Positions 1,722 to 25,480 of a DNA stretch of 25,489 nucleotides are shown here, piece by piece. The stretch's first letter is position 1; every line of letters starts with the position of its first letter. The notes beneath the pieces were generated by a model. That model had not been told where the DNA came from and did not search any database. It saw nothing but the letters and a program-made list of their open reading frames with translations. The DNA lies in IMG/VR virus record IMGVR_UViG_3300020405_000561, positions 1 to 25,489 of that record; one strand, written 5' to 3'. The stretch is from a virus. The position numbers were made by a program, and so were the translations under genes.

Positions 1722-3379
1722 CAGTAATCACCCCTTAACATACGTGCTACTCCTGTAATGAAATCATTATGAAAGTTTTGGAATTCTCTATTGTGCTGGA
1801 ACCTATCTACATTTTGTCGTGCCGCCAGAGCTAACTCATTAGCAGTTCTAAAATGTCTGTTGCCTTGTTCATCTCTAGTTACATAATTAGCCATCAACCA
1901 AGGATCATCAGGTAAAAGATCAGGAGCATTCCAAAGATTTTTAACAGCTAAGTACTGTCCTTGTAATGTATCTTTGATAGATACTCCTTGAGCGATATAA
2001 TCTTCTCGTTCTTCAGGAGTGAAAGGCCAATCGACCTGATTAAATGCTCTTGTAAGTATCATGTCATCAACTGTTTCTTTATCTATCTTTTCGGATTTAA
2101 CATCTTTAGCCCATTTACGTAAATCATTAACATCAATATCCATGAAGTTAGCTTTAGCTAAGGCTTTCCATTCATTCATAAGCGCAGAGATGCTACCTAT
2201 ACCAATAGTTGTATCTCGGAATCTTTCTTTAAGATTACCGTCTTCATCTACCCACTCATTGAGAAATATCTTTTCAACAATTTGTATAGCTTTTTCTCTA
2301 AATTGGTCTGGAGTAAATTGTTCTCTATCGCGTCCAAGTTTATAACTCGCTCCACCGCTAACCATGATTCGATAAGCGTATCTAGCAATATCAAAGTGGT
2401 TAATTATACCACTTTCTATAAACTCTCCTCCTCCTTGTCTTTCAATAGCTTCAATCGCGTATCCTTTAAATTCTTCTAGTGCGGCATTATAAGGATTACT
2501 TGCACTTGGATCGGTATATGGAGGGTAATCATTATAATCAGGAAGACCAGTTATACCTGCACCATAAACTGGGTCAAGAAAACTGGTTCCCATTCCGGGT
2601 GCGCCTACACCACCTGATTGATACCAAAACTCTAGATGGCTTTTAACACCATCTTCAATGTCACGCCACCAACTTTGGTTATATAAACCATGCGTGTCAT
2701 CATAAAAGAAATCCATTTGTAATTGCTCAATGGATACACCCATAGCTGAAGCTACATCTTCAGGTTGTTCATTAAATTTTTCTACCCAAAAGTCAAAGAA
2801 ATCTTCTACTCTAGGATCAACGTCACCCCATAAATCTAACCAATTCCAATCGCCTAACATTCCTCCACTGCCGGGAATATAAGGAAGTTCAGTTAATGAA
2901 ACAGGAAGAGACTCAGGTTCACTTACTGCTTCAGGAGCAGGATCGTTTTCACCTGTTTGTTCTATTAAATTTTCAAGAGATTCAAATTGTTGTAATGAAT
3001 CTTGCATTGTAGGAACAACAGAAAAATGATCGTAATGATCTAATTGGAACTGAACAAAATCTTGAAAGTTGCCTGCGCCTGATTCAACAGCAATCTTTCC
3101 GAACTGCCAAATATTATTAGCCATTAATAAGAAAGGCACTAACGATAATGCGTTTCTTTGCTCATTGCCAGAAAGGTTACTAATTATTAATCTTTCAATC
3201 TCTTCAGGTGTTGATCCTTCTAATGCCGCAGTTTCTATAAGAGGGTAGAAAAAATTATAAAACGAATCTGATAATTCAACATCTATATAATATTGATCTG
3301 TGATTTCTTGAAGAAAGTTTCTGAATCCTTCCTCATTAAGCATCACACCTTGTGGTCCTTGAGGTGGCTCTTCTGCCAT
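1721..3379 (-). CDS. Putative internal virion protein (552 residues)
   Basis: No catalytic motif is recognisable. The N-terminal third is acidic and helical, followed by a Pro/Glu/Ser-rich linker at about residues 140-175. The middle is Trp-, Tyr- and Asp-rich with Gly/Pro loops (YQSGGVGAPGMG, then repeated Pro/Tyr/Asp turns). The C-terminal 220 residues are a regular helical region with alternating charged and hydrophobic positions, ending in a short helix and RMLRGDY. This C-terminal layout resembles the ends of internal or tail-associated proteins I know from actinobacterial phages, but I recognise it only by style. Start and stop both lie in one-base overlaps (TAATG upstream, TGATG downstream), and AAGGAG precedes the start at good spacing. 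The function stays unassigned; a virion protein is the likely class. Confidence 0.58.
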   Translation of the reverse strand: MAEEPPQGPQGVMLNEEGFRNFLQEITDQYYIDVELSDSFYNFFYPLIETAALEGSTPEEIERLIISNLSGNEQRNALSLVPFLLMANNIWQFGKIAVESGAGNFQDFVQFQLDHYDHFSVVPTMQDSLQQFESLENLIEQTGENDPAPEAVSEPESLPVSLTELPYIPGSGGMLGDWNWLDLWGDVDPRVEDFFDFWVEKFNEQPEDVASAMGVSIEQLQMDFFYDDTHGLYNQSWWRDIEDGVKSHLEFWYQSGGVGAPGMGTSFLDPVYGAGITGLPDYNDYPPYTDPSASNPYNAALEEFKGYAIEAIERQGGGEFIESGIINHFDIARYAYRIMVSGGASYKLGRDREQFTPDQFREKAIQIVEKIFLNEWVDEDGNLKERFRDTTIGIGSISALMNEWKALAKANFMDIDVNDLRKWAKDVKSEKIDKETVDDMILTRAFNQVDWPFTPEEREDYIAQGVSIKDTLQGQYLAVKNLWNAPDLLPDDPWLMANYVTRDEQGNRHFRTANELALAARQNVDRFQHNREFQNFHNDFITGVARMLRGDY

Positions 3380-6165
3380 TACGTTCTCCTTCTTAAGCCA
3401 GCATCAGGATAAAACATTTGTTGCATAGCAAATTTCTTTAAACGATCAGGATCCCATTCTTCTCCATTAGAAGGACGGATAGTATTACGATTCGGCTTTC
3501 TCCATATATGAGGAAGATCAGAAGATACTTCCACACCAAACTGTGGAGCTAAACGTATAGCTTCTTCTTGATCTTTCATAGTTTCATAACCTACAAATAC
3601 TGCATCTCCGTTTTCTAATTGTGTTTGAACATCTTTCGGTATAACTGTTTGAGGATTAATACCTTGTTTACGTAAATCACCTACAGCATTTTTATATAAA
3701 GATGGATCTTCCGCACCAGAAATAATTGTCGAACCAGCTAAAGCAGAGTTCATACCAAAAATTTGATTAGCAATACCCGGATTTAAAGAATCAATACTTT
3801 GATGCCCAGTACCTCGCGCACCTCTACCTATAACATCTCCTAATTTACTAGCGAAATCAATAAGTTTACTTGCGTGATCTGGATTTGTTGCTAACCATGT
3901 TGTTACTGCCGCGCCACCAGCACCAGCTAGTAACCAACCATACAATTTCCTAGTATTTTCTTGACCATAAATACTATCTTGATCGAATAACTTGCCTTTA
4001 CCCGGACCACCAAGAGGTAAGTCTGGTGTTGCTGTTGGTTTTATCTTTGGATCTTCATGATATTTTCTTGCACGTAAAAATTTTGCTAATGCTTCTCTTT
4101 CTTGTGGTGAGTCACCAGTATCATAGAGACTTAAAGAGTCTGGAAGAATTTCATCATCTTGATTAAATGGTTGTCTAGATAAATCTAAACCATCAATTAT
4201 TTCCTCATCAGTTAAACCATCTCCAAAGTATGGATCTTTAGATAACTGTGCAGTGTAGTCTGCTATCATTTGATCTAATTGTTCAACATTCACATCCATA
4301 TCTATTAGCTCAAAAAATTGTGCTAACTGATCGTCGTTATGAACATTCATTCGTAACCAATCTTCACCAAATCCTAAGTCTTTTATCTTTTGATAATCCG
4401 CATCAGCGGCGTTAGCCATAAAAGAATCCCAACCATCATAAGCAGGGATGCCCATCTCGTCGCCTACCCTTTTAACAAAATCAGTAATGCCTTCATCCCA
4501 TTCATCTGGTGGTGGTGAATTTATTTCATCTAAAAATTTCTGTATGCCAGCATCAGGACTATCCTTTTCTAACATTTCTTCCATTTGTTGTATGCCCCAC
4601 TCAGGACTTTCAGTAAGCGCTTTTCTTTCACGGTTAGCTATAGCTTGTCGCATAAAAGGTAACAGATCTTCTTTGCTAATCTTGTCAGGGAATTCGTAAC
4701 CCATCCCACCCTTAATAGGATCACCTTTATATTCCTGTTTAAACAAACTTAAAGCGTCAGCTAAAGTATTAGGATCACGCCAAGGATCATCATCAATCAT
4801 TGGAGCGCTACGATCCCAAAGAGACTGCACTCTTTCTGCGTTTTGGCTATAAAAAGCATCATCAAGTAAATCAGATTGAGATAACTCATCTAAAACTTCT
4901 CGGATTTGTTTCGGAGTCATTCCTCCATGTTCCGCAGTTTTACCTGCAATATAATTTTCGTATTCATTTATTTGATGTTCGAGTTCCATTAACTCGTTAT
5001 CCCATTGTTCTCTATTAAGTTTTCTATTAAGAGGAATAGGATCAGTTAATCCTTTCCCTTCATCTATTAATTTTATAAACTCTCTTACACCCGGATCAGG
5101 ATTAACACGTTGCCAATACTCCTGTACTGCTATTTCATATTCACGTACTGAAGCAAAATCTGAAGGGTCAGGTTTTTCATAGTTCTTATAACCTCTCCCT
5201 CTATCTACTATTACCAATGATTCGACATCCACGGGCGCCGAATCATCAGGTCGTCTAATAGTTGATATTGGATTTGGACCTTGATCTGGACCAGCTACTC
5301 TCGGAGTTGATCTTGATCTAGTGCCGTCTGGTAAAAGTGTTAATTGATTTCTTTTTAATCTGTTTGCAGGATTAAGCCAACGTGTAAAAGATGTAATTGC
5401 TTTACCCATAGCCTGCCGGCCAGCAGGACCAAGCATCGCACCTATGCCTAATTCAAGTCCCCATTCAATAGCGCTATTAGGAACTAAAGGTATCAGATGA
5501 TCGAACTTACCTTCATGTGGCATCTTTGCAGGGTATGGATCAATTTTAAATTCTTGATTACTAGAAGTAAAACGATTAAGCAATGTATTTTGCTCGGCTT
5601 GCATCCGTTTTCTTTCGTCTTCGGTTGCATTCATCCACTCATCATTAGGGCGTAGCTTTACTCCCGGTCGTTTAGGATCACCACCAGAAGCTATAACTTC
5701 TTCAGTGTTAGGCCCACGAAATGATCCCATTCGCCCCATAACAATATTGCTAGGACGATGCGCGCCGCTCATAGCCCCTGATTGAAATATTCCTGTTCTA
5801 TCAAAAGGATTTTTATGATAAAAATTATGGCCATCGACATCCCACGCATACATAATGTCATGCGAACTAACACCCAAAGTTGTTAATACATCAATTACTC
5901 CGTCATATGTTAAACCTAAATCGTTTAAAATTACATCAGCTTGCTTTACAAAAAGTTCAGACTCAACAGGAAAATTTAATTCGTTTCTAGATAATCTTGC
6001 ATTAATACCTTTAGGAAAACTACCCGGATCAGCAGTAGCAGTACTTCTTCCTATCTTTCTTTGATGCGCCATAGGCACACCCATCTCCGATACACCAACA
6101 TGCACAGCACGTAAAAGTTCTAAATAAGCTGAAGCTACATCACGATCAGAATATTTAACTGTCAT
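3379..6165 (-). CDS. Large putative internal virion protein with one hydrophobic segment (928 residues)
   Basis: The protein has a helical N-terminal 150 residues, a Pro/Arg/Asp-rich low-complexity middle (about 270-330), then long acidic helical stretches to about 700. One clear hydrophobic segment (GWLLAGAGGAAVTTWLA, about residues 737-757) is preceded by basic residues and followed by helices. It could be a transmembrane helix or a membrane-inserting segment used when the protein is ejected into the host. The C terminus is basic (AGLRRRT). I find no lytic transglycosylase, peptidase or polymerase motif. The start overlaps the upstream stop by four bases (ATGA) and has a GGGAG ribosome site; the stop is a TAATG with the next gene. 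The size, the position among other giant genes and the Gly/Ala segment favour an ejection-type virion protein, but this is inference. Confidence 0.55.
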   Translation of the reverse strand: MTVKYSDRDVASAYLELLRAVHVGVSEMGVPMAHQRKIGRSTATADPGSFPKGINARLSRNELNFPVESELFVKQADVILNDLGLTYDGVIDVLTTLGVSSHDIMYAWDVDGHNFYHKNPFDRTGIFQSGAMSGAHRPSNIVMGRMGSFRGPNTEEVIASGGDPKRPGVKLRPNDEWMNATEDERKRMQAEQNTLLNRFTSSNQEFKIDPYPAKMPHEGKFDHLIPLVPNSAIEWGLELGIGAMLGPAGRQAMGKAITSFTRWLNPANRLKRNQLTLLPDGTRSRSTPRVAGPDQGPNPISTIRRPDDSAPVDVESLVIVDRGRGYKNYEKPDPSDFASVREYEIAVQEYWQRVNPDPGVREFIKLIDEGKGLTDPIPLNRKLNREQWDNELMELEHQINEYENYIAGKTAEHGGMTPKQIREVLDELSQSDLLDDAFYSQNAERVQSLWDRSAPMIDDDPWRDPNTLADALSLFKQEYKGDPIKGGMGYEFPDKISKEDLLPFMRQAIANRERKALTESPEWGIQQMEEMLEKDSPDAGIQKFLDEINSPPPDEWDEGITDFVKRVGDEMGIPAYDGWDSFMANAADADYQKIKDLGFGEDWLRMNVHNDDQLAQFFELIDMDVNVEQLDQMIADYTAQLSKDPYFGDGLTDEEIIDGLDLSRQPFNQDDEILPDSLSLYDTGDSPQEREALAKFLRARKYHEDPKIKPTATPDLPLGGPGKGKLFDQDSIYGQENTRKLYGWLLAGAGGAAVTTWLATNPDHASKLIDFASKLGDVIGRGARGTGHQSIDSLNPGIANQIFGMNSALAGSTIISGAEDPSLYKNAVGDLRKQGINPQTVIPKDVQTQLENGDAVFVGYETMKDQEEAIRLAPQFGVEVSSDLPHIWRKPNRNTIRPSNGEEWDPDRLKKFAMQQMFYPDAGLRRRT

Positions 6166-8486
6166 ACATTTCTCCCGGCTGGCATACTGGTTAAATCACG
6201 ACGGCGGCTTATTACACTAGCTAACTGTCCAAATGGTTGTGGATTAATACCAGTCAACTGATTAGCTCTAGCTATTCTTTCTTGTAATGTTCCATAAAGT
6301 TCAGGCGTTTCAACATCTTCAAGAACAACAGCTTCACGTATTTCTTGCGCCATGCGCTCATAATCTCTGATTGTATAATTAAAATCTGCCCCGACTCTTG
6401 AACCTAAAGTATTACCAAAATTATTAAGAGCGTTAGCTAATGATCCCACTTCACCTATAGCTGTTTCTTCTCCTTGTTGTTTAATTAAATCTAAAAAGAA
6501 ACTAATAATAACATCTCTTGCGGCTTTTCTAGTAACAGGACGCGGATCTACAAAATCGTCATATACAACATCCATGTTATATATTGTCCCTCGATCTTGA
6601 GTTGTAACTTCAGGAACATTTTGCAACTGACCCGGATTTAAACCAGCCTGATACATAGGCATAGTAGAAGTACCCGGATCCCAAGCTGGAGAATTTTCTA
6701 TTGCTTCCAACTCTTCATCACTAAGAGCGCCAGATCGTTTAGCATAACGATAGTAATCAAAAGCAGAATCATTAGCTCCTATGAAAACATTATCTTCCCA
6801 ATCCTCGTCTTGATAAAATAATCTCATCGCTACTTCAGCAACCATTTGTTGTTCAGGAGTTCCTCCACCACCAAATGCTTCTTCTTGTTCCTCAAGTGTA
6901 AGTTCTTTTATATCTTTCTTTAATTCTTTACGAACTATATCTTTACCTTCTTCAGTAAAAGTTCGCCCACTTCTACTAGCGAGACTATCTAAGCCACTAA
7001 TAACAGACTCTATTGCGCTTACATACTGTCCTTCACGCCCACCTCTTTCTGGTAAAGTCTCAAGTTTTCTAGCAACACTAGCGTGAACAACTTTATCTAA
7101 ATAAGCTGTACCATCAGGAGACAAGTTTGCTATATCTCCATCAGCTTGTCTTAACCCTTCATTAATAAGATCTGCTTGTAGCATTTGAAGAGCATCAATA
7201 CTTGGATCAACGTTTGCTCCTTGTTCACCTCTTACAAGTCCCGGTATTTCTAATTTGCCCCATTCAGCAGGAGCGCTCATATATCCCCACGCATAAAGTT
7301 CTTGTTGTATTCTTGCAAGAACAGATGAATATCCGCTTCCATCTTTTGTCTCGTTATATAATCTATCCATGAAATAGCTTGCGTCCATCGGTCCGATTTT
7401 GCCACCAGAAAATAAATCTTTAACGCTTTGAATATCTCCAAATGGTGTGCCATCGAAAGAAGTAATGAATGCTATTTGATCTTGTGGTGCTTGTGTTTGC
7501 CCATCTTCTAACAAACCTGTTTGTTCTGCCATTAGTCCTTGGCCAAGAGTTCCTACTGATGGTCCTATAAGTATTGCTCTGTTGTTTCCTAATAGTTCCT
7601 CTTGTGCGGCGATTAAAGCATTTTCAAAGTTTTGTGCTACTAAATGTTCAAAAGCATTATGTCCCCACATTTGATTCATATTTGCTATATTGACTTCTTC
7701 GTTTCCTAAACTACCAAAAGTCCTGAGGATCTGAGCCATCGTGTCTCTACCTGCTTGAAAATCTTCTGCGTAATAAGGTTTATCCCATCCTCTATCTTCC
7801 CAATCCCAACTATCATCAGGATTAGCAGAAGCCATTACATCAAAAGCTTTTTGAAGTTCACCTTCTATTCTTTGTTTAACTTGTGGTATTGAATCCCAGT
7901 TGTCAGCAATAAACATTAAAACTTCATTTCGTGACTCTACACCAGCAAGATCCAAAAGGCGTGTTTGAGGAATACCTGCTTTATCTTGAATAGTAAAAGA
8001 TGCTCCTAATGGTGCGCCTTCTCGTTCAACTTGACTAATGCCATGACCAATAAGCCAATTAATAAATTTTATAAATGCACTTTGTTTACTCATGCCAGCA
8101 AAATGGATTTCTTTTATAGCAGTACGATTCCCTTGTTCTGCTAAATCACCACCATCTGATTCATAAAAAGATTTTGAATCTTTTCTTTTATCTTGTTCTC
8201 TCTCTTCTTTTGTTCCTAAGAGCCATTCATCAAGCCATGTGAATGGGCCTATAATTTCAAGTCCTTTTTTATGAGCATCGCGCTGAAATTCGAAGTATGC
8301 TCTACCAGCTCGACCAACGTTTTCAGCACCTATTCGGTAATGATCCCCTTCTGGTCCCATGATTGTGTCATATACTGCATCAGCACCTCGACCTACAATG
8401 TCATGCGCTTCATCACGAATCTCTTCTATTGCTGGAGCCATCGCTTCATTAAGACCAGTCGGATCAGGTAAACCCATATCACTCAT
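6162..8486 (-). CDS. Large putative internal virion protein, possible peptidoglycan-binding-like segment (774 residues)
   Basis: The protein is acidic and mostly helical. An N-terminal region of about 130 residues is amphipathic and highly charged, including a Lys/Glu/Asp cluster. Around residues 385-440, a run with VLARIQQELYAWGYM, a Pro/Gly turn and then DPSIDALQMLQADLINEGL resembles the helix-turn-helix layout of small peptidoglycan-binding modules (helix, GY turn, D..T/S, helix). I have met similar runs in proteins of actinobacterial phages, but the match is weak and by eye only. A second helical block with many Glu follows at about 495-560, and a Pro/Ile-rich part ends in a basic tail (RRRDLTSMPAGRNV). 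The start lies in the stop of the 2734-residue gene (TGATG) with AGGAG about 10 bases upstream. It could help the ejected proteins cross the cell wall; this is unproven. Confidence 0.55.
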   Translation of the reverse strand: MSDMGLPDPTGLNEAMAPAIEEIRDEAHDIVGRGADAVYDTIMGPEGDHYRIGAENVGRAGRAYFEFQRDAHKKGLEIIGPFTWLDEWLLGTKEEREQDKRKDSKSFYESDGGDLAEQGNRTAIKEIHFAGMSKQSAFIKFINWLIGHGISQVEREGAPLGASFTIQDKAGIPQTRLLDLAGVESRNEVLMFIADNWDSIPQVKQRIEGELQKAFDVMASANPDDSWDWEDRGWDKPYYAEDFQAGRDTMAQILRTFGSLGNEEVNIANMNQMWGHNAFEHLVAQNFENALIAAQEELLGNNRAILIGPSVGTLGQGLMAEQTGLLEDGQTQAPQDQIAFITSFDGTPFGDIQSVKDLFSGGKIGPMDASYFMDRLYNETKDGSGYSSVLARIQQELYAWGYMSAPAEWGKLEIPGLVRGEQGANVDPSIDALQMLQADLINEGLRQADGDIANLSPDGTAYLDKVVHASVARKLETLPERGGREGQYVSAIESVISGLDSLASRSGRTFTEEGKDIVRKELKKDIKELTLEEQEEAFGGGGTPEQQMVAEVAMRLFYQDEDWEDNVFIGANDSAFDYYRYAKRSGALSDEELEAIENSPAWDPGTSTMPMYQAGLNPGQLQNVPEVTTQDRGTIYNMDVVYDDFVDPRPVTRKAARDVIISFFLDLIKQQGEETAIGEVGSLANALNNFGNTLGSRVGADFNYTIRDYERMAQEIREAVVLEDVETPELYGTLQERIARANQLTGINPQPFGQLASVISRRRDLTSMPAGRNV

Positions 8487-11400
8487 CAGACAAGAACTCC
8501 TGTGTTAATGTTGATGTTTCCGGCATCATATTTCGCTAACCAACTTTCTCCAATTAAAGGCACGAATACGCTATAGAATAGCTCATTTAACCAAGGTTTG
8601 TTACTGGTGAAAGATTCTAATATGTTATAATACTGCGCTCTAAGAGCATCTCGTTTCTGTTGAGCATCAGGAGTATTCAATCCTCTAAGCGAATCCATCT
8701 TATTTTGGAATCCAACAATCGTACTCATAACAGTTAAGACATCATCTTTATGCTCACCTTCTGGAATTAAATCAGGTGACTCTACAAGATGTCTGAACTG
8801 TCGAAGAGTTTCTGCTCTTCGTTCCCTTGAAGTACCAGTAGTAATAACGTGATTAAATACAGGATGTTGTGTTTTAAATGTCTCATACCAAACATCCCAA
8901 ACTCTATCTAACTCTGTAGTATCAGCATTAACTCGTTTATGTGCTTGTTTTTGTTTTAAATACTGTGTTCTTTTTTGGCTATACAAACCATAAGAAACAT
9001 TAAAGTAAAGTTGTTCTAAGAATTCTTCAGGACTTTGTAAAGTTCTAAGACCCATATTAATTTGTCTTTGTTTAGCTTCAGCTATGTATTCATCGTCTTC
9101 AGGATTAAAATCTCTAGGCATAAAGAAAGCACTAGCCATCGTAAATGATCTAGTGAACTCATCATTATTAACTAACCACCGATTAGCTTCTTGTGTTGTT
9201 TCTAAAACAGCAAAAGGAATTTTTTCATATGCACTTGTACGGAATGGTGAGAACTGCATAGCATTAAAATCTTCACCAGTTCTAGCTTCTATATTCTTTA
9301 CCCATTGTGGATACGCTTGTTCATAAGGTAAACCTAATTCAAGCAATTCATAAAACTCTGAGTTCCATTCCCAGTTTTCATTTAATGTAAGATCAGCTAA
9401 ATAACCTGTACCTGTACCAAAGAACCATGTCATAGCTTGAAGCAACTGATATTGTTTCGCCATTGCATCTACTTTTTCTAAGAATGCTTCTTGGAATAAA
9501 GCAGGATTATCTGCATTAGCAATTTCTTCTTCACTTGGTATCTTATCCATCATTGCTAAAAACTTAATAACATCAATCTTTGCTTTGCTTCTTGCTTCAC
9601 CTTCAGGTCCATCAATACCAGCAATCTGCAAACTTCTTGTTAAAACCGCTGGCATAAACGAAGACCACACAGCTTTCGCTAAAGATTCCGCATTAGAAGA
9701 AACATCACTTACACCTGTGTAACGTCCTCCAATAATATTATTTTCAAATATTTGTCTTATCTCAGGATCACGCCCTGACAAATAATTAATTGGCGCGGCA
9801 AGCAAAGGACCAAACCCCATACGTCCTATAGTTTCAAGATCATATCCGGGTACAACTTTAAGACTTGTAGCTAATCCCATTGATGGTCTAATAACTGAAC
9901 CAAGTTCCCCACCGAAAACATTCTTAACTATCGGAGTGCTGTCAGCTATAGCTAACATTGCTGTTGTAGCTACTTCGCTACCCGGAATGATTAGTTTCCT
10001 TTCACCGAATTCATCTGTTTGAACAAGTCCGCTGTATACACCAGCAGTCATTGTTAGATGCAAATTGCGTAACATCAACGGATTATGCTTTAAGCTTCTT
10101 CCGACACGACGAAGGAAGTTATCTTCAGCGAACCAAAACGGAACCATTGTTCCTACCATCTGCTGGAATTGTGAACGTATACGATGATCGTCAATATATG
10201 CACTTGTTAGTGTCATTGCTCTTTGTGTTGCTACATCTCTATGCGTTTCAAAGACTCGTTTCTTATGATGCATCATACTAAAGAAATCATCTTGCACACT
10301 TGCGACTGATCTCCGTCGCGTAAATATTTCTGTCCCTGCTGGATCTTTTGTTGGTGCCATACTTATAAAAATATTATCGCCGTTAATATCTGTGGGTTTC
10401 ATATCCATAAGGTTTCTAACGCGGAACCATATGGGATGAACTTCTTCTAGCATTCTGTCTGGAATATTGTCTAATACATAAGCTAATGCTTCATGATCTC
10501 TTTTTTCTATAGCAAAAGCTATCTGTGTCCACACCTCATCTGAATCCGTATGAGCCAACTGCCATTCTACTTCTGCAAAATCTGTGAAAGGTTGCATATC
10601 GTACTGTCCAAATTCATCAAAAGATTCAAGTGTATCGTCGCGCGTTAATACATAGTGCAAATCTTCTTCAGCAAATATTGATTTTGTTTTATAGGTACCA
10701 ATCTTTGTTTTACCTTTTGGTCCTTCAACAAAAATATCACCTTTGTCATATTGTCTTCTGCCTTTAATTGTTTTATCAAAAATAAATTCGTTAGCAACAA
10801 CCTCACGTTTCGCTCTATCAAAATTGCGACGAATACTCTGTGTCTGATCCCAACCCGTTACTAGATAATGCTGGAACATAGGTTCTCTTACCATTGCTCC
10901 AATCATTGGATTAACTATCCCATCAAACCAATTCCTAAGAACACTTGTCCAAGCATCATTAATCTTTTCACCAACACTTCCACCCTCATTAGTAACAGGA
11001 ACAAAAGCTAAAATATCTTTAGGAGCATGAGGCCACCATCTACCATCAGTAGCGGCTCGATGAATTCTATGAGCGCTTACAGGATCTTCACTTAAAACTT
11101 CTCGCACCCAAGGATAAAACCATTCTTCTCGTCCTGCACCACGACGCGCTCCACTAGAAAGAAGATCAACAACTTCTTGTTTAGCTAATAAAGCATACTG
11201 TTCAGCAGTAGCTCGAATACCATTTAAAGGCACTCGTTGTTCTTCTACAAGTTCTGCACTTTCAAACCAGTCAATAGCATCAGGATCTATTTCAGTTCCT
11301 TCTTCTAATAAAATAAATCTTCCTGTTTTATCTTTGTAAATCTTTACAGTACCAACTTGTGATTGCCCATCTAATACATGTATCGGGCTTAATCCTCCGG

Positions 11401-14400
11401 GCTTAGGAGAAAGGAGATAAGAGCCACCCACTCCTATCATTGTTTCATTTTTTAATCCTCCCTCACCAAACTCTTTAGAACCAACAGAACCACGCCCTAT
11501 TGCTTCTCCAGTTATAGGATCGTTAGCTCCTTCAAAACCAAAGAAATCATTCCAAAATGGACCTGTTACATCTTCAGCTAATGTTTGATACTCAGTACTA
11601 CCTTTAACACCATTTCTTGTAACTGTTGTCCGATACTCAGGACGACTATATGAAGCGAACCCACCTTGATTAAATAATGATTCTGAATTTACATCTAACG
11701 CACCAATCATTCCTTTGATGCCACCTTGCGCTACATCTGCGGCAGTTAAAGTTTCAGCATCTAACATGTCAACAATGGTTTCAGAAATAGCATTAGCTAC
11801 ACGATCATCTGCACTACCTACAACAATAGGGAAATAATTTCCTGTAGTAGACCACTCTTCCATTAAAGCAACTTGAGCGCTTAAAGTTTCTCCAATATTT
11901 CCGGGATGTAATAATCTAGCGGCTTTAACAGCTTCGTCAGGACTTACCCCGATAACAGATAATCTTTCTCCAAGTACATCTACAAAAGTATTAAACCATT
12001 CTCTTCCAAGTCCACCACCCGGACGTAACATATTTGTGTACTTCTCAGCCAGCCTCATTGGTATCATCGGCATAAACAAACGTGTCATTCCGGGAGGTAA
12101 AGGAAGATCTAGTTTCCCTTTCAAGTTCCCACCAGCGGCTCCTCGATGAGAAGACAAAATAAATTGTTGTCCTTCTGGTGTACCCGAAAGATACTTTACG
12201 TATGCTTTCATTCCTCTTTCGATCGCTTCGTCAAAGTTGTCAGTTAAATTGTCAATCTTGACATCGCTCAATAGAAAAGCCATAAGGTTCCAGTCGGCTC
12301 CTAGCTCAACACCAGCGGCATCTTTAGGATTTAATAATGCTTCCCAAATCCATTGTTGCTCTCCGGGCTTACTGCGAATGAAACTTTCAACAGCTTCTAT
12401 GTAAGCAAGATCTCCTGAAACCACAGAAGAAATTAATTCGCCAGTTTCATCTAACGCTTCAGCAGGAATAATATTGTCATACGCTTTACTAAGTTTTTCT
12501 AATGAATCAGGATCTTTTCTTAAAGCTGTTAACACAACTACTTCTGGATTAGCAGTAGCTAGGTATGCTAAGTCAAGATCTGCTTCAAGAAGTTTATCTG
12601 AAAGCTGTCGTAATTTTTCTCTAGTACTTACAGGTACATGATGCATCGCTTCAAACAAAAACTTTTGTGTAGCTTTATCGCCCGACATCATATCTATTCG
12701 TTGTGCTACAGCTATTGATTTAGGTACACCATGAATAGAACTGCTATCAACAGTACTTATATATTTAAGATCACGATTTTCACGGAGACCCACCATCGCC
12801 ATTTGCACTAAATTATTAATAGGGCTATCTACCCCTGATTGTCTTAGTGCGGCATCTAAAGTGTTCTTTTCAAAATTAAGATAATTATCGAATCCACCAA
12901 GTACATCTTTCATTTGGGCATCTAATATTGTTGGGTGAGTATAAGTACGAATAATCGCATCTACTCTTTTATCGTGATCTAGATCTACTGCACGACCAAC
13001 TTTTTCAGCAAGTTTATATCTTGATGGAAGTCCCGGAATTTTACTTCTTACATTGTCATACAATAAGCTGAGTTCATTTGCTTTAGAATCAGCAAACTCA
13101 AATAATCTTTTAGATGTTTTGCCAAAGAATTTTCTTTCGCGTACATCTTTTTCAACACCTTTACGAACTTGTTTAAATAATTCTACTCTTTGATCTTCAG
13201 TCATAAACTGCCACTTATGTGGTTTAGCTTCAATAGATTCTTTAATAGCTCTAGTTGTAATTGCGTAATCACCTACACCAGCAAACTCGTTAAATGATCT
13301 CCACATTCTAGAGAATGGTCTCCAAAACAATGGCGCTCTTACAGAATCAGCTACAGTTTTACCATCAGCTAATTTGTCAGTACCTTTCATCATTATACGA
13401 CGGCCATACTCATCCCATACAGGATGAAGATCTACGGCTTTACGAGCAAGTTTTTGTTTTAAATAATTAGTTGGTCCTTCACGCCACCACCATGTAGCAA
13501 GCTCTTCGCCACCATTACGTGCAACGTAACCTAATCGTAATAAAACTGCTGGTCGCCAAGCACGAGCCATAAATTTATCTATTTGTGGTAAAGGTAATCC
13601 CCATCCAAGCCTTCTATACATAGACATATAACGAGAAACAGCGGCAAGTTCTCTATAGTCTGGCATCACATTTGATTTAGCAAATTGAGCTAAGTGTTCT
13701 TGGCTAGGATGCACAGCAGTACGAATATTAAGATTATGGAAACCAACAAAGTCTTCCGCTACCTGCCCATATTTGTGATGACCATGCCTTACAAATCGTT
13801 CAATAAACCTTGTAACATCTGAACCACCCATCAAGATAGCACCAGATCGTCCTAAGAAATCTAAATAAAATTCTGTTGTTACTCTCCATCTATCAGCTTC
13901 ATTACCTAAAGCATAATCACGGAAGAAATGATCTATTTGAGTTCGTGGCATATCAGCTAAGATGCCCATATCTACTAATGCTTGGAATTCTTGCAGTCCA
14001 AATTTTGGATCTGTTAAATCTAAATGTTTTGCTTTTGGAACATACGTTGTTAATTTCTCAGCGAACTTTGCTGGATGGTATGATAAAGCTACTGCTGTTG
14101 CTCTAGTTATAATTCCTGTTCTAGTCCACCAATCAAGTTCACCATTGTGACCTCCAGCGGCATGAATTTTTTTATTAAAGTAATCTTCTTCTAATTTATT
14201 TCTTGTTCTAGTAAATAAATCTTTTGGCTTACGTAAGAGCGAAGGCTTACGTAAACTTAATTCAAGTATTCCTGTATCTGGATTCTTTTGAAAGTGCCAT
14301 CCTTCTGCTTGATACCAATGATACAAGTCAGACATTTCACCATCTTCTAAAATAAACATAGGTGCTTGTTTTTCAAAAGTTTCAACAGCTTCAGTTATCT

Positions 14401-16690
14401 GCTGATAATCTTCAGGATTTAACCCTAGCTCATCATAAGTATGTGGCAGTTCTGCTTTATCTGTAAGGCGTGGATCTTTAAGAAGTCTATCTAAATCAAG
14501 TTGATCTATTTCCTTACTTAATTGAATCGCGCCTTCTTCTATACCTTCCCATACTTTTTTATGTACATAGTTTCCTTGCTTAACTAAAAACTGTGCAGTC
14601 AGTCGAGCCATATCAGCTTTAGCTTCTAAATCGACATTATAAAAGTCTTGTGTTTTTCTAATCCATCGTTTCGTTTTAATCCATTGTTCACCAAATGCAG
14701 AGATAGCAGGTATCCACATAGCTTCAGGATCTACACCACCTAAATTAGTAGCAAGTCCTTTCATGCCTGCTGAACTTTCTAAGAACTCCCAGTATCCCTC
14801 ATGGTCAGCAAGAGTAGGAAATGATCTATTAGTCATTCCCTTCATCTCCATAACACCATCAACATCTAGATCATCCCAAACAATCCAACCTTCTTCAGTA
14901 GGTATTTTTTTGTGACCATATACTCCGCTATCTGGGAAACTATGAAATCCGCTTATATCAGCTTGACTAATTACTTCACCAGTAAAATCATCTATGACTT
15001 GGAAGTAACCATTTTCATTTATATACCCTTGGTCTACAACAATGTTCATCTTTCTTCGCATCATGTGATGCTTAATCATGTCCGGCATGATCGCTCGTAA
15101 TCCGGGTAGATCACGCACAAGTTGTCCTATTGGATCAACTACACTAAATACTCCTTCATCAATAAGTTCTGCTTGTTTTTGTTTCCATGTTTTAGATCCA
15201 TCTAAGTAAGCTTCAGTTTTTTTGAATTGCGTTTCAGCTAACTGTTGTGCATCTAATTCAGAAAAAGCAGAAGTTAATCTGTCAATAAAACGATTGTGTG
15301 CTTGACCTCTAGCACGAAGCATTAATGGATTCGTTCCTACCTTAAGTGCCGCTGTTTGCCAAAGATCTCTCAATGGTTGAAAGACAGGAATGCCTCCTAC
15401 TTCTACAGCCGCATCGCGTGACTTTTTAGGTTGTTTAATCCACTCACCTATTTCATCAGTAGGATCAGAAAAAGTTTTAGTATTTGGATCCCAAATTTTT
15501 AAATCTTTAAATAGTCCTCTTGCTCTACCACCTTTAAGCGCGTCCCAAATTTTTTCTTCTGCTCTCACAGTCATAGCTATTCGTCGTTCAAGATCAATTA
15601 ATTTAGATGTATATTGACTTCCTCTTACACCAGACTTAATTGCTTTATAAACTTTTACATACGCTCCCCCTACCCATGTCATAGGATCAAGAAGAATCTC
15701 TATACCAAGAGCGCCGACAGTTCCAATAATTTTTCCACCTACACTATTAGGTGAAACATCGTAAGGAGATACAGCATTAAAGCCTCTAATGGATGCATCG
15801 AAAAGTGTTAGCTTGCCTGACTCTAATATCTTTAAAGCATCTAAAGATTGTTGATCATCTAAAGTTGTTTGCCATGCTTCAAATCTTGACTGTGCAACTG
15901 AAGCGTTACCTTGTGAGTTATTTAAAATAAGATCATAAACACCTTGTTGGCCATCAGTAAGATACGCTCTTAAAAGATCTGTTTGTTGTTTACCAACTAA
16001 ATCAACAGCCGCTTCTACAGTTCCACTATAATAAGAATCATTTTCATTTTTAGTGGCATTCCAAGCTTCTCGCCATGTAGCAGGGTTACCCATTTGTGCT
16101 GTATCTAAAGGATCCCAATGACTTAAGCCAGCATACTTTTGAGTTAGATATGCACCTGTTCTACCTAAACGAGTAGCAAACCTAGAAGGTTTCATTATAG
16201 CAGTTTCCCAAAGAGTGCTTGTTGCTTTACCTGCTACGAAACCAACTGCACGAATAGGAGCCATCCCCCATTTAACTGCTGTACCAAAATGTTCTTCAGG
16301 TAATAGTGGGATATCCCATGTGAGCATACGTTTCCATAAAGCATCTTTACTAGCATCAGGTATTTCGTATCCTGATCCTAAAAGAACTTTTTGTGTAGCA
16401 GGTGGAAGAGAATTAAATTCTGCCTCTTGTAATTGTTGAGGCATAGCTTCCATTTTTTCTTTCATCATATTGAAATCAACTTGATCGTGTCCTGATAAGA
16501 AACTGTCAAGCATGTCATTATCTGTTTTACTTGAACTAGCTAAAGCCACCAATGTTTGAGGTGCTGTTTTTAAATAACGATCTCCTCCTGCTTTAAGCAA
16601 AAGTTGCATACGCCTTCCATACCACTCGTCATCAAATGAGGAAAATTCAGCAGATCCAACTGCTCTTCTATTACCAGCCCGTTCAGCCAT
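8486..16690 (-). CDS. Giant virion-type protein of 2734 residues
   Basis: This single intact frame fills nearly a third of the window. No signal peptide is present. The N terminus (about 1-120) is charged and helical. At about 315-345 a Gly/Ile-rich hydrophobic run (GTVGALGIEILLDPMTW) is followed by basic helices. Long regions with regular Trp/Tyr, Leu and charged residues follow. At 1041-1066 is MARAWRPAVLLRLGY followed by RNGGEELATWWW. At about 2180-2230 lies MVPFWFAEDNFLRR with a NPLMLRNLHL helix and a GLVQTDEFGE turn. I remember the last two patterns from giant proteins next to portal genes in actinobacterial phages, without a proven function. An Asp-rich DDLDVDG sits at 606-612. No complete enzyme motif set is visible. 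Its start overlaps the upstream gene by 8 bases, and no ribosome site is seen. The size and place resemble those of giant ejection proteins or virion-packaged enzymes of other phages, so an internal virion role is the best inference. Confidence 0.65.
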   Translation of the reverse strand: MAERAGNRRAVGSAEFSSFDDEWYGRRMQLLLKAGGDRYLKTAPQTLVALASSSKTDNDMLDSFLSGHDQVDFNMMKEKMEAMPQQLQEAEFNSLPPATQKVLLGSGYEIPDASKDALWKRMLTWDIPLLPEEHFGTAVKWGMAPIRAVGFVAGKATSTLWETAIMKPSRFATRLGRTGAYLTQKYAGLSHWDPLDTAQMGNPATWREAWNATKNENDSYYSGTVEAAVDLVGKQQTDLLRAYLTDGQQGVYDLILNNSQGNASVAQSRFEAWQTTLDDQQSLDALKILESGKLTLFDASIRGFNAVSPYDVSPNSVGGKIIGTVGALGIEILLDPMTWVGGAYVKVYKAIKSGVRGSQYTSKLIDLERRIAMTVRAEEKIWDALKGGRARGLFKDLKIWDPNTKTFSDPTDEIGEWIKQPKKSRDAAVEVGGIPVFQPLRDLWQTAALKVGTNPLMLRARGQAHNRFIDRLTSAFSELDAQQLAETQFKKTEAYLDGSKTWKQKQAELIDEGVFSVVDPIGQLVRDLPGLRAIMPDMIKHHMMRRKMNIVVDQGYINENGYFQVIDDFTGEVISQADISGFHSFPDSGVYGHKKIPTEEGWIVWDDLDVDGVMEMKGMTNRSFPTLADHEGYWEFLESSAGMKGLATNLGGVDPEAMWIPAISAFGEQWIKTKRWIRKTQDFYNVDLEAKADMARLTAQFLVKQGNYVHKKVWEGIEEGAIQLSKEIDQLDLDRLLKDPRLTDKAELPHTYDELGLNPEDYQQITEAVETFEKQAPMFILEDGEMSDLYHWYQAEGWHFQKNPDTGILELSLRKPSLLRKPKDLFTRTRNKLEEDYFNKKIHAAGGHNGELDWWTRTGIITRATAVALSYHPAKFAEKLTTYVPKAKHLDLTDPKFGLQEFQALVDMGILADMPRTQIDHFFRDYALGNEADRWRVTTEFYLDFLGRSGAILMGGSDVTRFIERFVRHGHHKYGQVAEDFVGFHNLNIRTAVHPSQEHLAQFAKSNVMPDYRELAAVSRYMSMYRRLGWGLPLPQIDKFMARAWRPAVLLRLGYVARNGGEELATWWWREGPTNYLKQKLARKAVDLHPVWDEYGRRIMMKGTDKLADGKTVADSVRAPLFWRPFSRMWRSFNEFAGVGDYAITTRAIKESIEAKPHKWQFMTEDQRVELFKQVRKGVEKDVRERKFFGKTSKRLFEFADSKANELSLLYDNVRSKIPGLPSRYKLAEKVGRAVDLDHDKRVDAIIRTYTHPTILDAQMKDVLGGFDNYLNFEKNTLDAALRQSGVDSPINNLVQMAMVGLRENRDLKYISTVDSSSIHGVPKSIAVAQRIDMMSGDKATQKFLFEAMHHVPVSTREKLRQLSDKLLEADLDLAYLATANPEVVVLTALRKDPDSLEKLSKAYDNIIPAEALDETGELISSVVSGDLAYIEAVESFIRSKPGEQQWIWEALLNPKDAAGVELGADWNLMAFLLSDVKIDNLTDNFDEAIERGMKAYVKYLSGTPEGQQFILSSHRGAAGGNLKGKLDLPLPPGMTRLFMPMIPMRLAEKYTNMLRPGGGLGREWFNTFVDVLGERLSVIGVSPDEAVKAARLLHPGNIGETLSAQVALMEEWSTTGNYFPIVVGSADDRVANAISETIVDMLDAETLTAADVAQGGIKGMIGALDVNSESLFNQGGFASYSRPEYRTTVTRNGVKGSTEYQTLAEDVTGPFWNDFFGFEGANDPITGEAIGRGSVGSKEFGEGGLKNETMIGVGGSYLLSPKPGGLSPIHVLDGQSQVGTVKIYKDKTGRFILLEEGTEIDPDAIDWFESAELVEEQRVPLNGIRATAEQYALLAKQEVVDLLSSGARRGAGREEWFYPWVREVLSEDPVSAHRIHRAATDGRWWPHAPKDILAFVPVTNEGGSVGEKINDAWTSVLRNWFDGIVNPMIGAMVREPMFQHYLVTGWDQTQSIRRNFDRAKREVVANEFIFDKTIKGRRQYDKGDIFVEGPKGKTKIGTYKTKSIFAEEDLHYVLTRDDTLESFDEFGQYDMQPFTDFAEVEWQLAHTDSDEVWTQIAFAIEKRDHEALAYVLDNIPDRMLEEVHPIWFRVRNLMDMKPTDINGDNIFISMAPTKDPAGTEIFTRRRSVASVQDDFFSMMHHKKRVFETHRDVATQRAMTLTSAYIDDHRIRSQFQQMVGTMVPFWFAEDNFLRRVGRSLKHNPLMLRNLHLTMTAGVYSGLVQTDEFGERKLIIPGSEVATTAMLAIADSTPIVKNVFGGELGSVIRPSMGLATSLKVVPGYDLETIGRMGFGPLLAAPINYLSGRDPEIRQIFENNIIGGRYTGVSDVSSNAESLAKAVWSSFMPAVLTRSLQIAGIDGPEGEARSKAKIDVIKFLAMMDKIPSEEEIANADNPALFQEAFLEKVDAMAKQYQLLQAMTWFFGTGTGYLADLTLNENWEWNSEFYELLELGLPYEQAYPQWVKNIEARTGEDFNAMQFSPFRTSAYEKIPFAVLETTQEANRWLVNNDEFTRSFTMASAFFMPRDFNPEDDEYIAEAKQRQINMGLRTLQSPEEFLEQLYFNVSYGLYSQKRTQYLKQKQAHKRVNADTTELDRVWDVWYETFKTQHPVFNHVITTGTSRERRAETLRQFRHLVESPDLIPEGEHKDDVLTVMSTIVGFQNKMDSLRGLNTPDAQQKRDALRAQYYNILESFTSNKPWLNELFYSVFVPLIGESWLAKYDAGNININTGVLV

Positions 16691-24383: not shown

Positions 24384-24770
24384 CTAAGCCAAAGTTATAT
24401 CTAGCGAACCTGCCGCAAGCGAAATCGTGTCACCAGCAGTAACAGTCTTAGACGCAGACACAGCACCATAAAACAAAAGGTTCCCCGAAGAAGCCGCATC
24501 CCAAATACCTATATGAGTCACAGTGCAACCCGGCATGTTAGTGAACTCCTCAGCGGACGAATTGTCTATCGTACCGTTCGTAGCGTGAGCGGCATTAAAA
24601 GTAATAGCCTGCCTTGCATAAGACCCACCAGATACTTCCGCACCGGAACCGTCTTCAGCAGGATCGGCTGTATGCAAAGAAAGATACACAGCGGCGGGAG
24701 CCCAATCCGCTGTATCACGGAGAACATAGTCTAAGACTTTAGTCTCCAAATAATTTGACATTGCTGACAT
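24384..24770 (-). CDS. Conserved phage structural protein, first main gene of the operon (128 residues)
   Basis: The protein begins MSAMSNYLETKVLDYVLR, then AAVYLSLHTADP, EVSGGSYARQAITFN, a Thr/Ser strand part, VTHIGIWDAASSGNLLFYGA, KTVTAGDTISLAAGSLDITL. I recognise this family from actinobacterial and marine phages: SNYLE.K.LD.VL, A.VYLALFT.DP, GGSYARQ, THIGI.DA..GG.LLF.G. Members are small virion proteins near fibre genes. The usual start is the second Met (24761), but the first (24770) has a strong ribosome site, AGGAGA, five bases upstream and also closes a TAATG with a possible leader peptide, so I chose it. A structured RNA candidate and an AT-rich promoter-like tract lie upstream. Confidence 0.72.
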   Translation of the reverse strand: MSAMSNYLETKVLDYVLRDTADWAPAAVYLSLHTADPAEDGSGAEVSGGSYARQAITFNAAHATNGTIDNSSAEEFTNMPGCTVTHIGIWDAASSGNLLFYGAVSASKTVTAGDTISLAAGSLDITLA

Positions 24771-24861: not shown

Positions 24862-25091
24862 GAGATGTGCGAACCCTTATCAGGTTCAGTTCGCCCGTCA
24901 GAGGGGCATTCGCTCCCTGCAATCAAGTCAAGCAGGGACAGAGCAAAGCGTGATCGCTCGAACTCAGAGTGGAACCGTACTCAAAACGGACGGATGGCAC
25001 CCAAGGGGAAACTAAACTCAACACATCCGGTGTCCACGACGAGAATAACAAGCCTGACACATATTTAAGATAGCCACTGCTGGTACATCCC
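24862..25091 (-). ncRNA. Candidate structured RNA upstream of the late operon
   Basis: About 230 bases without a credible gene pack at least seven mutually compatible or near-compatible stems. A closing helix joins 25085-25091 to 24862-24868. Inner stems pair 25056-25060 with 25030-25034, 25024-25029 with 24991-24996, 24986-24989 with 24975-24978, 24955-24958 with 24947-24950, 24932-24938 with 24914-24920 (7 perfect pairs, 11-base loop), and 24904-24907 with 24893-24896 or, competing by two bases, 24889-24894 with 24869-24874. The minus strand is favoured because the closing helix then has a G-U wobble where the plus strand would have an A-C mismatch, and because T6 follows the 3' end at 24855-24860. 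It is locally more GC-rich than the genes. I excluded tRNA, tmRNA and RNase P RNA by eye. The class is unknown. Confidence 0.45.
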
Positions 25092-25271
25092 CACCTCGTC
25101 CCTTAAGCTTCCACCAACTAAGCAAAAAAATCCTCAACCCACATAGCCACACAAGCAACTAACCTACGTACGACCCCAAAAAAGACCACACCAGTCAAAG
25201 CAGGACATGTGATAGCCAAGAAGTCTAAGTTTTCGGCAATTAAAAGTATTAGGCATAAGCGTTGGATGTAA

Positions 25272-25346: not shown

Positions 25347-25405
25347 TCGCCGATAAGGTTTGTGGTTAGCAAGTTCCTTGTCGGCGACCACGGAGCGATC
25401 CGTGG
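25347..25405 (+). other. Two adjacent strong hairpins
   Basis: The first stem pairs TCGCCGATAAGG (25347-25358) with CCTTGTCGGCGA (25376-25387) across a 17-base loop: 12 pairs with one G-U wobble when read as plus-strand RNA, but a C-A mismatch on the minus strand. Directly after it, CCACGGA (25388-25394) pairs with TCCGTGG (25399-25405) around GCGA, a GNRA tetraloop on the plus strand only. A plus-strand RNA element is therefore favoured. A run of A, not T, follows, so it is not a normal terminator. Confidence 0.5.
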
Positions 25406-25412
25406 ACGATCG

Positions 25413-25480
25413 AAAAAAAAAAAAATAGTTGGGTTGAAAAAAAATAGCAACCTAAAAGAAAGGAAAAAAAATCAAAAAAA
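25413..25480. other. A-tract cluster at the window edge
   Basis: Four A-runs of 13, 8, 8 and 7 bases start at 25413, 25437, 25464 and 25474 on the plus strand. Between the first and third, GGTTG (25432-25436) and CAACC (25448-25452) can form a small stem. Spacing is not regular enough to claim phased bending. Confidence 0.55.

Follow-up and report, generated by a model that had tools for sequence, protein, structure and literature searches.

The window analysed here is a phage contig of 25,489 bases that, according to its open reading frames and a PHROGs search, has minus-strand genes. Its late operon opens with a head protein gene, followed later by terminase and portal genes, and among its products there is one protein of 2734 aa (8486-16690) adjoined by other very large proteins. 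Upstream of the head protein gene lies a non-coding element (Table 1), which the initial annotation had already delimited as a compact structured RNA preceding the first structural gene. Both statements hold, as the element is conserved in many related contigs with compensatory pairs, and the head protein of PHROG 240 is found downstream of it in the window, with the same late-side placement in the marine relatives examined.

Table 1. Features of the element and of its neighbouring gene in the window.
Feature	Positions	Strand	Basis
Structured non-coding element	24862-25091	-	upstream of head-protein gene, same strand as that gene
Head protein gene, late operon gene 1, PHROG 240	24384-24770	-	PHROGs E 5e-36
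Supported structure	25010-24871 plus 5' module	-	conservation and pairing in relatives
5' module: GAUGUACC box (25089-25082), then AT-rich stretch and AUAUGUGUC	25056-25089	-	conserved box upstream of motif
Stem GUGUC (25060-25056)/GACAC (25034-25030)	25030-25060	-	two arms kept among the window's relatives
Conserved block UUCCCCUUGGGUGCCAUCCG opening the core	24991-25010	-	CC(U)UGGGnCCCUCCG in many unrelated marine families
P1 hairpin CCGU (24989-24986)/ACGG (24978-24975), 7-nt loop UUUGAGU	24967-24989	-	pairing versus shuffles
Pseudoknot, P1 loop GAGU (24982-24979) with ACUC (24970-24967)	24967-24989	-	several different pairings across members
H4 hairpin UCCCUGC (24938-24932)/GCAGGGA (24920-24914)	24914-24938	-	compensatory changes, window group
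H5 signature GCCC-CUCUGAC-GGGC-GA, most conserved part of the element	24891-24907	-	compensatory changes
H6 hairpin GAACC-UGAUAAG-GGUUC, 7-nt loop	24871-24887	-	stem position kept, stem sequences unrelated

Read along the minus strand, the element comprises the box GAUGURCC and an AT-rich stretch, the GUGUC/GACAC stem, the block CCCUUGGGUGCC, P1 with its pseudoknot, H4, H5, a GA dinucleotide and finally H6. The 5' module is possibly a promoter or a protein site, and of 55 nonredundant members, 20 have its ATGTRCC sequence at a distance of 180-320 nt on the upstream side of the motif, where 1.2 were expected and the downstream control gave 1. A G/C stem was also noticed around the GATGTRCC box (25082-25096), in which G..C and C..G are swapped between relatives (L002 and L009 versus L013), as if only pairing were kept. 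The covariation of the GUGUC/GACAC stem is weak because its arms are mostly invariant.

The predicted minimum-energy fold of the element is no more stable than those of shuffled sequences (z = -0.07 for the minus strand and -1.32 for the plus strand), so that the single sequence proves nothing and the evidence has to be supplied by the relatives. The structure that the relatives support comprises the stretch between 25010 and 24871 and the 5' module. Homologues were collected by blastn of the element region against contigs fetched by their head or terminase protein, which gave identities from 98% down to about 70%. Each genome has a single copy of the element at E<0.01. A protein-coding explanation was rejected, since no frame is open in all 28 relatives and any given one is open in at most 8 of them.

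Comparison of the homologues revealed compensatory base changes in two hairpins, in the 7-nt-loop stem and in the pseudoknot. As a MAFFT alignment across groups (A1, A2) misplaced H4, models were built within groups. In the closest one, both sides had changed in 3 of 16 pairs, and 98.8% of the cells were paired in comparison with 27-59% when the partners were slid. Among 56 nonredundant members, H4 reached at least 7 pairs in 39% (1.5% of shuffles) and H6 at least 4 pairs at the expected place in 54% (8% of shuffles), and among 22 nonredundant ones, P1 and the pseudoknot together had 8 or more pairs in 45% (1.3% of shuffles). The pairings of the pseudoknot include GAGU/ACUC, CAGU/ACUG, AGGC/GCCU, CAGC/GCUG, AGGU/ACCU and ACGC/GCGU across members, and the GCCC/GGGC stem of H5 is replaced by GUCC/GGAC in relatives, and mycophage origins have GCCG/CGGC there. 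Altogether, sequence comparison argues strongly for the homology of the element and its membership in a family. Two other details of the original description were lost on comparison. The helix thought to close the element end to end has 14 pairs in the window only and 4-8 pairs in 14 relatives, because the 5' side has been replaced there, and the T6 tract at the 3' end is not kept, the relatives having GUUUCAUAU or GGUUUAUGU instead. In contigs L116 and L122 the 5' part of the element is common and the sequences diverge past GTGTCAGGC, which corresponds to a mosaic junction within the element.

The wider occurrence of the family was followed with the motif pattern GCCCNTCTGACGGGCGA, searched in IMG/VR. 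Among the matches listed, most carry flanking hairpins and a minority resemble chance coding matches; about 22 of those listed were excluded by eye as probable coding, and in this excluded set flanking hairpins were present in 1 of 20 tested, while those searched with a covariance model built from 10 window-group sequences only (R1) were not found by it. Two pattern matches in bacterial genomes (L198 and L199) were judged to be chance because no H5 motif was seen beside them. The core, consisting of a hairpin, GCCC-nUCUGAC-GGGC-GA and a hairpin with a 7-nt loop, is found in at least dozens of unrelated contigs and in isolated Mycobacterium and Gordonia phages. In this regard, blastn searches from two distant members led to Mycobacterium phages of the A4 group (e.g. 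the right end of Wile), to Rahalelujah and to Gordonia phage Coeur. The element of Rahalelujah lies between gene 33 and parA, in a region that aligns with RedRock, Alma, LadyBird, Gladiator and Gordonia phage Daredevil. Such a recurrence does not stem from the pattern alone, since it was blast that led to the origins and a protein search that led to the head-protein relatives. A blastn search of plasmids with the Alma origin gave short weak matches only.

No tRNA or tmRNA was detected, and a scan of 4227 Rfam families at relaxed E-values gave no match of note, so that the original view of an undescribed RNA stands, with homologues that covary and none with a conserved frame. Environmental and phage RNAs of Rfam resemble the element in being structured RNAs of environmental phages, and the element matched neither phi29 pRNA nor other Rfam phage RNAs at E-values up to 10. 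The Pleft noncoding RNA of L5/D29 (PMC5712189) is likewise a phage non-coding RNA adjoining an early promoter at the early/late boundary; its identity with the element was rejected, the motif being absent from the right end of D29.

The phages reached by blast bring in published functional work, as protein-free, RNA-based (non-RepA) origins, belonging to extrachromosomal cluster A prophages, have been reported for five mycobacteriophages (PMC7157519). In M. smegmatis, a segment of ~600 bp that precedes parA in RedRock, Alma, LadyBird, Gladiator and Et2Brutus is enough for protein-free plasmid replication (Wetzel et al. 2020, PMC7157519), the neighbouring parABS not being essential for origin function on plasmids. 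According to the same work, deletion of Alma 26463-26959 or LadyBird 25900-26299 destabilises the prophage, and removal of the region holding Alma gene 35 abolishes plasmid replication, an effect that stop codons in gene 35 do not have. No structural model of these origins was found in the main text of that paper or in Rfam. The motif described here is inside all four origins fetched (Alma, LadyBird, Gladiator and RedRock), in each case within the ~600-bp plasmid-sufficient segment. In Alma it occupies 26708-26788, within the ori deletion and in the region of gene 35, and in LadyBird 26157-26244, again within the ori deletion. Across these four phages plus Rahalelujah, Echild and Daredevil, all 63 of 63 cells of H5/H6 are paired, and both sides have changed in 5 of 9 pairs. 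Between motif and parA, the mycophage origins (L313-L316) also show a hairpin of the GGCACC..GGTGCC type followed by TGnTAtAaT, which may be the parA promoter and operator.

Covariance models link both sets of sequences in either direction. Searched against nine actinophage loci (18 kb), R1 placed the motif at ranks 1-8 with E-values from 4e-7 to 6e-3, the next match being at 1.4; the order was Rahalelujah (4e-7), Wile, Gladiator, RedRock, Daredevil, Alma, Coeur and LadyBird (6e-3), and the best E-value on phage D29 was 5.7. On nine whole phage genomes the motif was the best match in five, and the fast first look of this search gave no candidate in Alma, Gladiator, Daredevil or D29. The reciprocal model R2, made from seven mycophage and Gordonia phage sequences, has as its best match the window element itself (24870-24944, minus strand, E 3.4e-6; next 0.63), and also recovers 25 relatives of the window. 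Moreover, the motif is present in Echild (1e-5), and it was not found in the ParA-linked phages Mulciber and Bachome nor in the RepA phage Miko. As a whole, these sequence relationships make homology between the window element and the published origins well supported.

The resemblance is limited to a 3' domain of ~80 nt (hairpin, GCCn-nUCUGAC-nGGC-GA, hairpin with a 7-nt loop), which in the cluster A origins as in the window is non-coding and present in one copy. Similarity over the whole ~600-bp origin was looked for and did not appear, the 5' halves being different; moreover, cluster A origins adjoin parA, whereas the window element lies at the early/late boundary, and no ParA (AAA_31) match was obtained in 7 relatives of the window. 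Since neither the whole-length similarity nor the parA neighbour was found, the element is not filed among the parABS-linked origins.

A G-U wobble had originally been taken to pick the minus strand. Wobbles of the closest group do favour it, with G-U at three pair positions and two cells opposite, yet a neutral count over all clusters gave 6 G-U versus 11 A-C events, both small numbers, after which the choice of strand by wobble was dropped. Folding z-scores (-0.51 versus -1.24 for the strands) do not settle the matter either, because the motif strand is G+T-rich and its shuffles fold well. A 5' module located upstream on the motif strand would suit transcription of that strand, and the published transcript of Alma and LadyBird runs along the opposite one (PMC7157519). 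By analogy, sense and antisense RNAs like those of ColE1 would fit all of the strand evidence. The element is best explained as a structured RNA, or else as a segment that acts through both strands. Its acting at the DNA level, as a single-strand initiation site that would still serve as an origin, is a very improbable reading: the balance of wobbles looks as if neither RNA strand alone were selected, but the counts are small and the origin region is transcribed in lysogens (PMC7157519).

In marine families the element separates divergent operons: head or terminase genes follow it on the downstream side, and the far-side genes mostly point away. It shares the late strand with those head or terminase genes in the marine families examined. 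This arrangement, together with the conserved promoter-like 5' module ahead of it, would be expected of an RNA that acts in cis where the late operon begins, as a leader or in antitermination, with a role comparable to that of put or EAR RNAs. We consider such a role unlikely, since in the Gordonia phages Daredevil and Coeur the element is on the strand opposite to the late genes and therefore cannot be their leader, and in the cluster A origin phages it is found mid-genome, before parA, within the plasmid-replicating segment. The same mid-genome location, the mid-contig location in the 48.3-kb relative G001 and the varying position of the contig ends near the element make a packaging (cos/pac) or genome-end element highly improbable, even though near-full-length contigs of 46.9-47.5 kb end near it and in Wile about 0.7 kb separates it from the right genome end. 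A free-standing RNA acting in trans on a host machine (RNA polymerase, ribosome or nuclease), whose effects on cluster A replication would be indirect, could account for the pseudoknot, the conserved loops and the variable genomic position, and cluster A phages are known to make stable noncoding RNAs in abundance (PMC5712189). This explanation appears still less likely than the leader, as the motif is absent from D29 in the region of the abundant L5/D29 RNA and the plasmid-sufficient origin segment has the element in cis.

Homology thus points away from the roles first suggested for this RNA (regulatory leader, packaging RNA or environmental RNA class) and towards the replication origins of cluster A. 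As its core lies inside protein-free, RNA-based origins of mycobacterium phages, the element is probably part of how these phages begin DNA copying. From this we infer its transcription, its origin role in the window phage and a mechanism. The reading of the element as a replication-origin RNA that belongs to the marine phage itself, with a 3' domain common to the protein-independent cluster A origins, is given a probability of about 0.52. The odds are about even because the element is carried by integrating phages such as Wile, which has a serine integrase as well as a DNA polymerase of its own, and Coeur, likewise with an integrase, because only the 3' domain is common, and because Alma lacking ori grows normally in lytic culture (PMC7157519), which is counter-evidence to a lytic role and leaves that role unproven. 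The opposite-strand transcript of Alma and LadyBird and the lack of a match in Mulciber and Bachome also speak against this reading, and the lack of the motif in the RepA phage Miko speaks for it. Mechanistically, a transcript across the element would adopt a fold of pseudoknot and 7-nt-loop hairpins, which host enzymes would exploit to start or control DNA synthesis where the divergent early and late operons meet. ColE1-type origins are protein-free and rely on structured RNA with 7-nt hairpin loops. The RNA II/RNA I system would work alike by analogy, and no Rfam RNAI/RNAII match was obtained for the element.

More tentatively, and with clearly lower confidence than for the window phage itself, one undescribed family of pseudoknotted RNAs that is widespread in phages might start replication without a phage initiator protein in marine phages and actinobacteriophages, in lytic growth and plasmid-like prophages alike, the mycobacteriophage origins being one branch of it. 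The covarying motif provides a structural model for RNA-based origins that predicts important bases, and would extend this origin type to marine and other phages without a recognisable replication initiator, so that the open question of how replication starts in them becomes testable on plasmids.

The gene content of the relatives counts in favour of the origin reading for the window phage. Six relatives of 43-48 kb gave no match to models of DNA_pol_A, DnaB_C, ParA (AAA_31) or tyrosine or serine recombinases, a search that small or unusual replication proteins could escape, and a larger contig of 81 kb has a DnaB-like helicase. In G001 no replication initiator, helicase or polymerase was recognised, and its early genes include SSB, a Cas4-like exonuclease, a Gp3/RDF-like protein and DUF932. 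Along this contig the cumulative GC skew reaches its minimum at 21-22.5 kb, close to the element (24.1 kb) but also where gene direction flips. The Gp3/RDF-like and Cas4-like exonuclease genes of G001 (L319:2155-3219 and 3379-4323) belong to types that also occur in actinobacteriophages. To judge from the relatives only, the host is likely to be found among marine Actinobacteria.

Four near-full-length marine contigs (G003, G004, G006 and G007) stop no more than about 0.5 kb from the element, at what may be genome ends or an assembly break. Finally, the window contains at 25382-25413 a non-coding block of ~30 bp, with the palindrome CCACGGA-GCGA-TCCGTGG beside a long A-run, possibly an operator, which recurs in relatives with 90-100% identity (e.g. 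L099, L005 and L009) at about 0.4-1.6 kb from the RNA.
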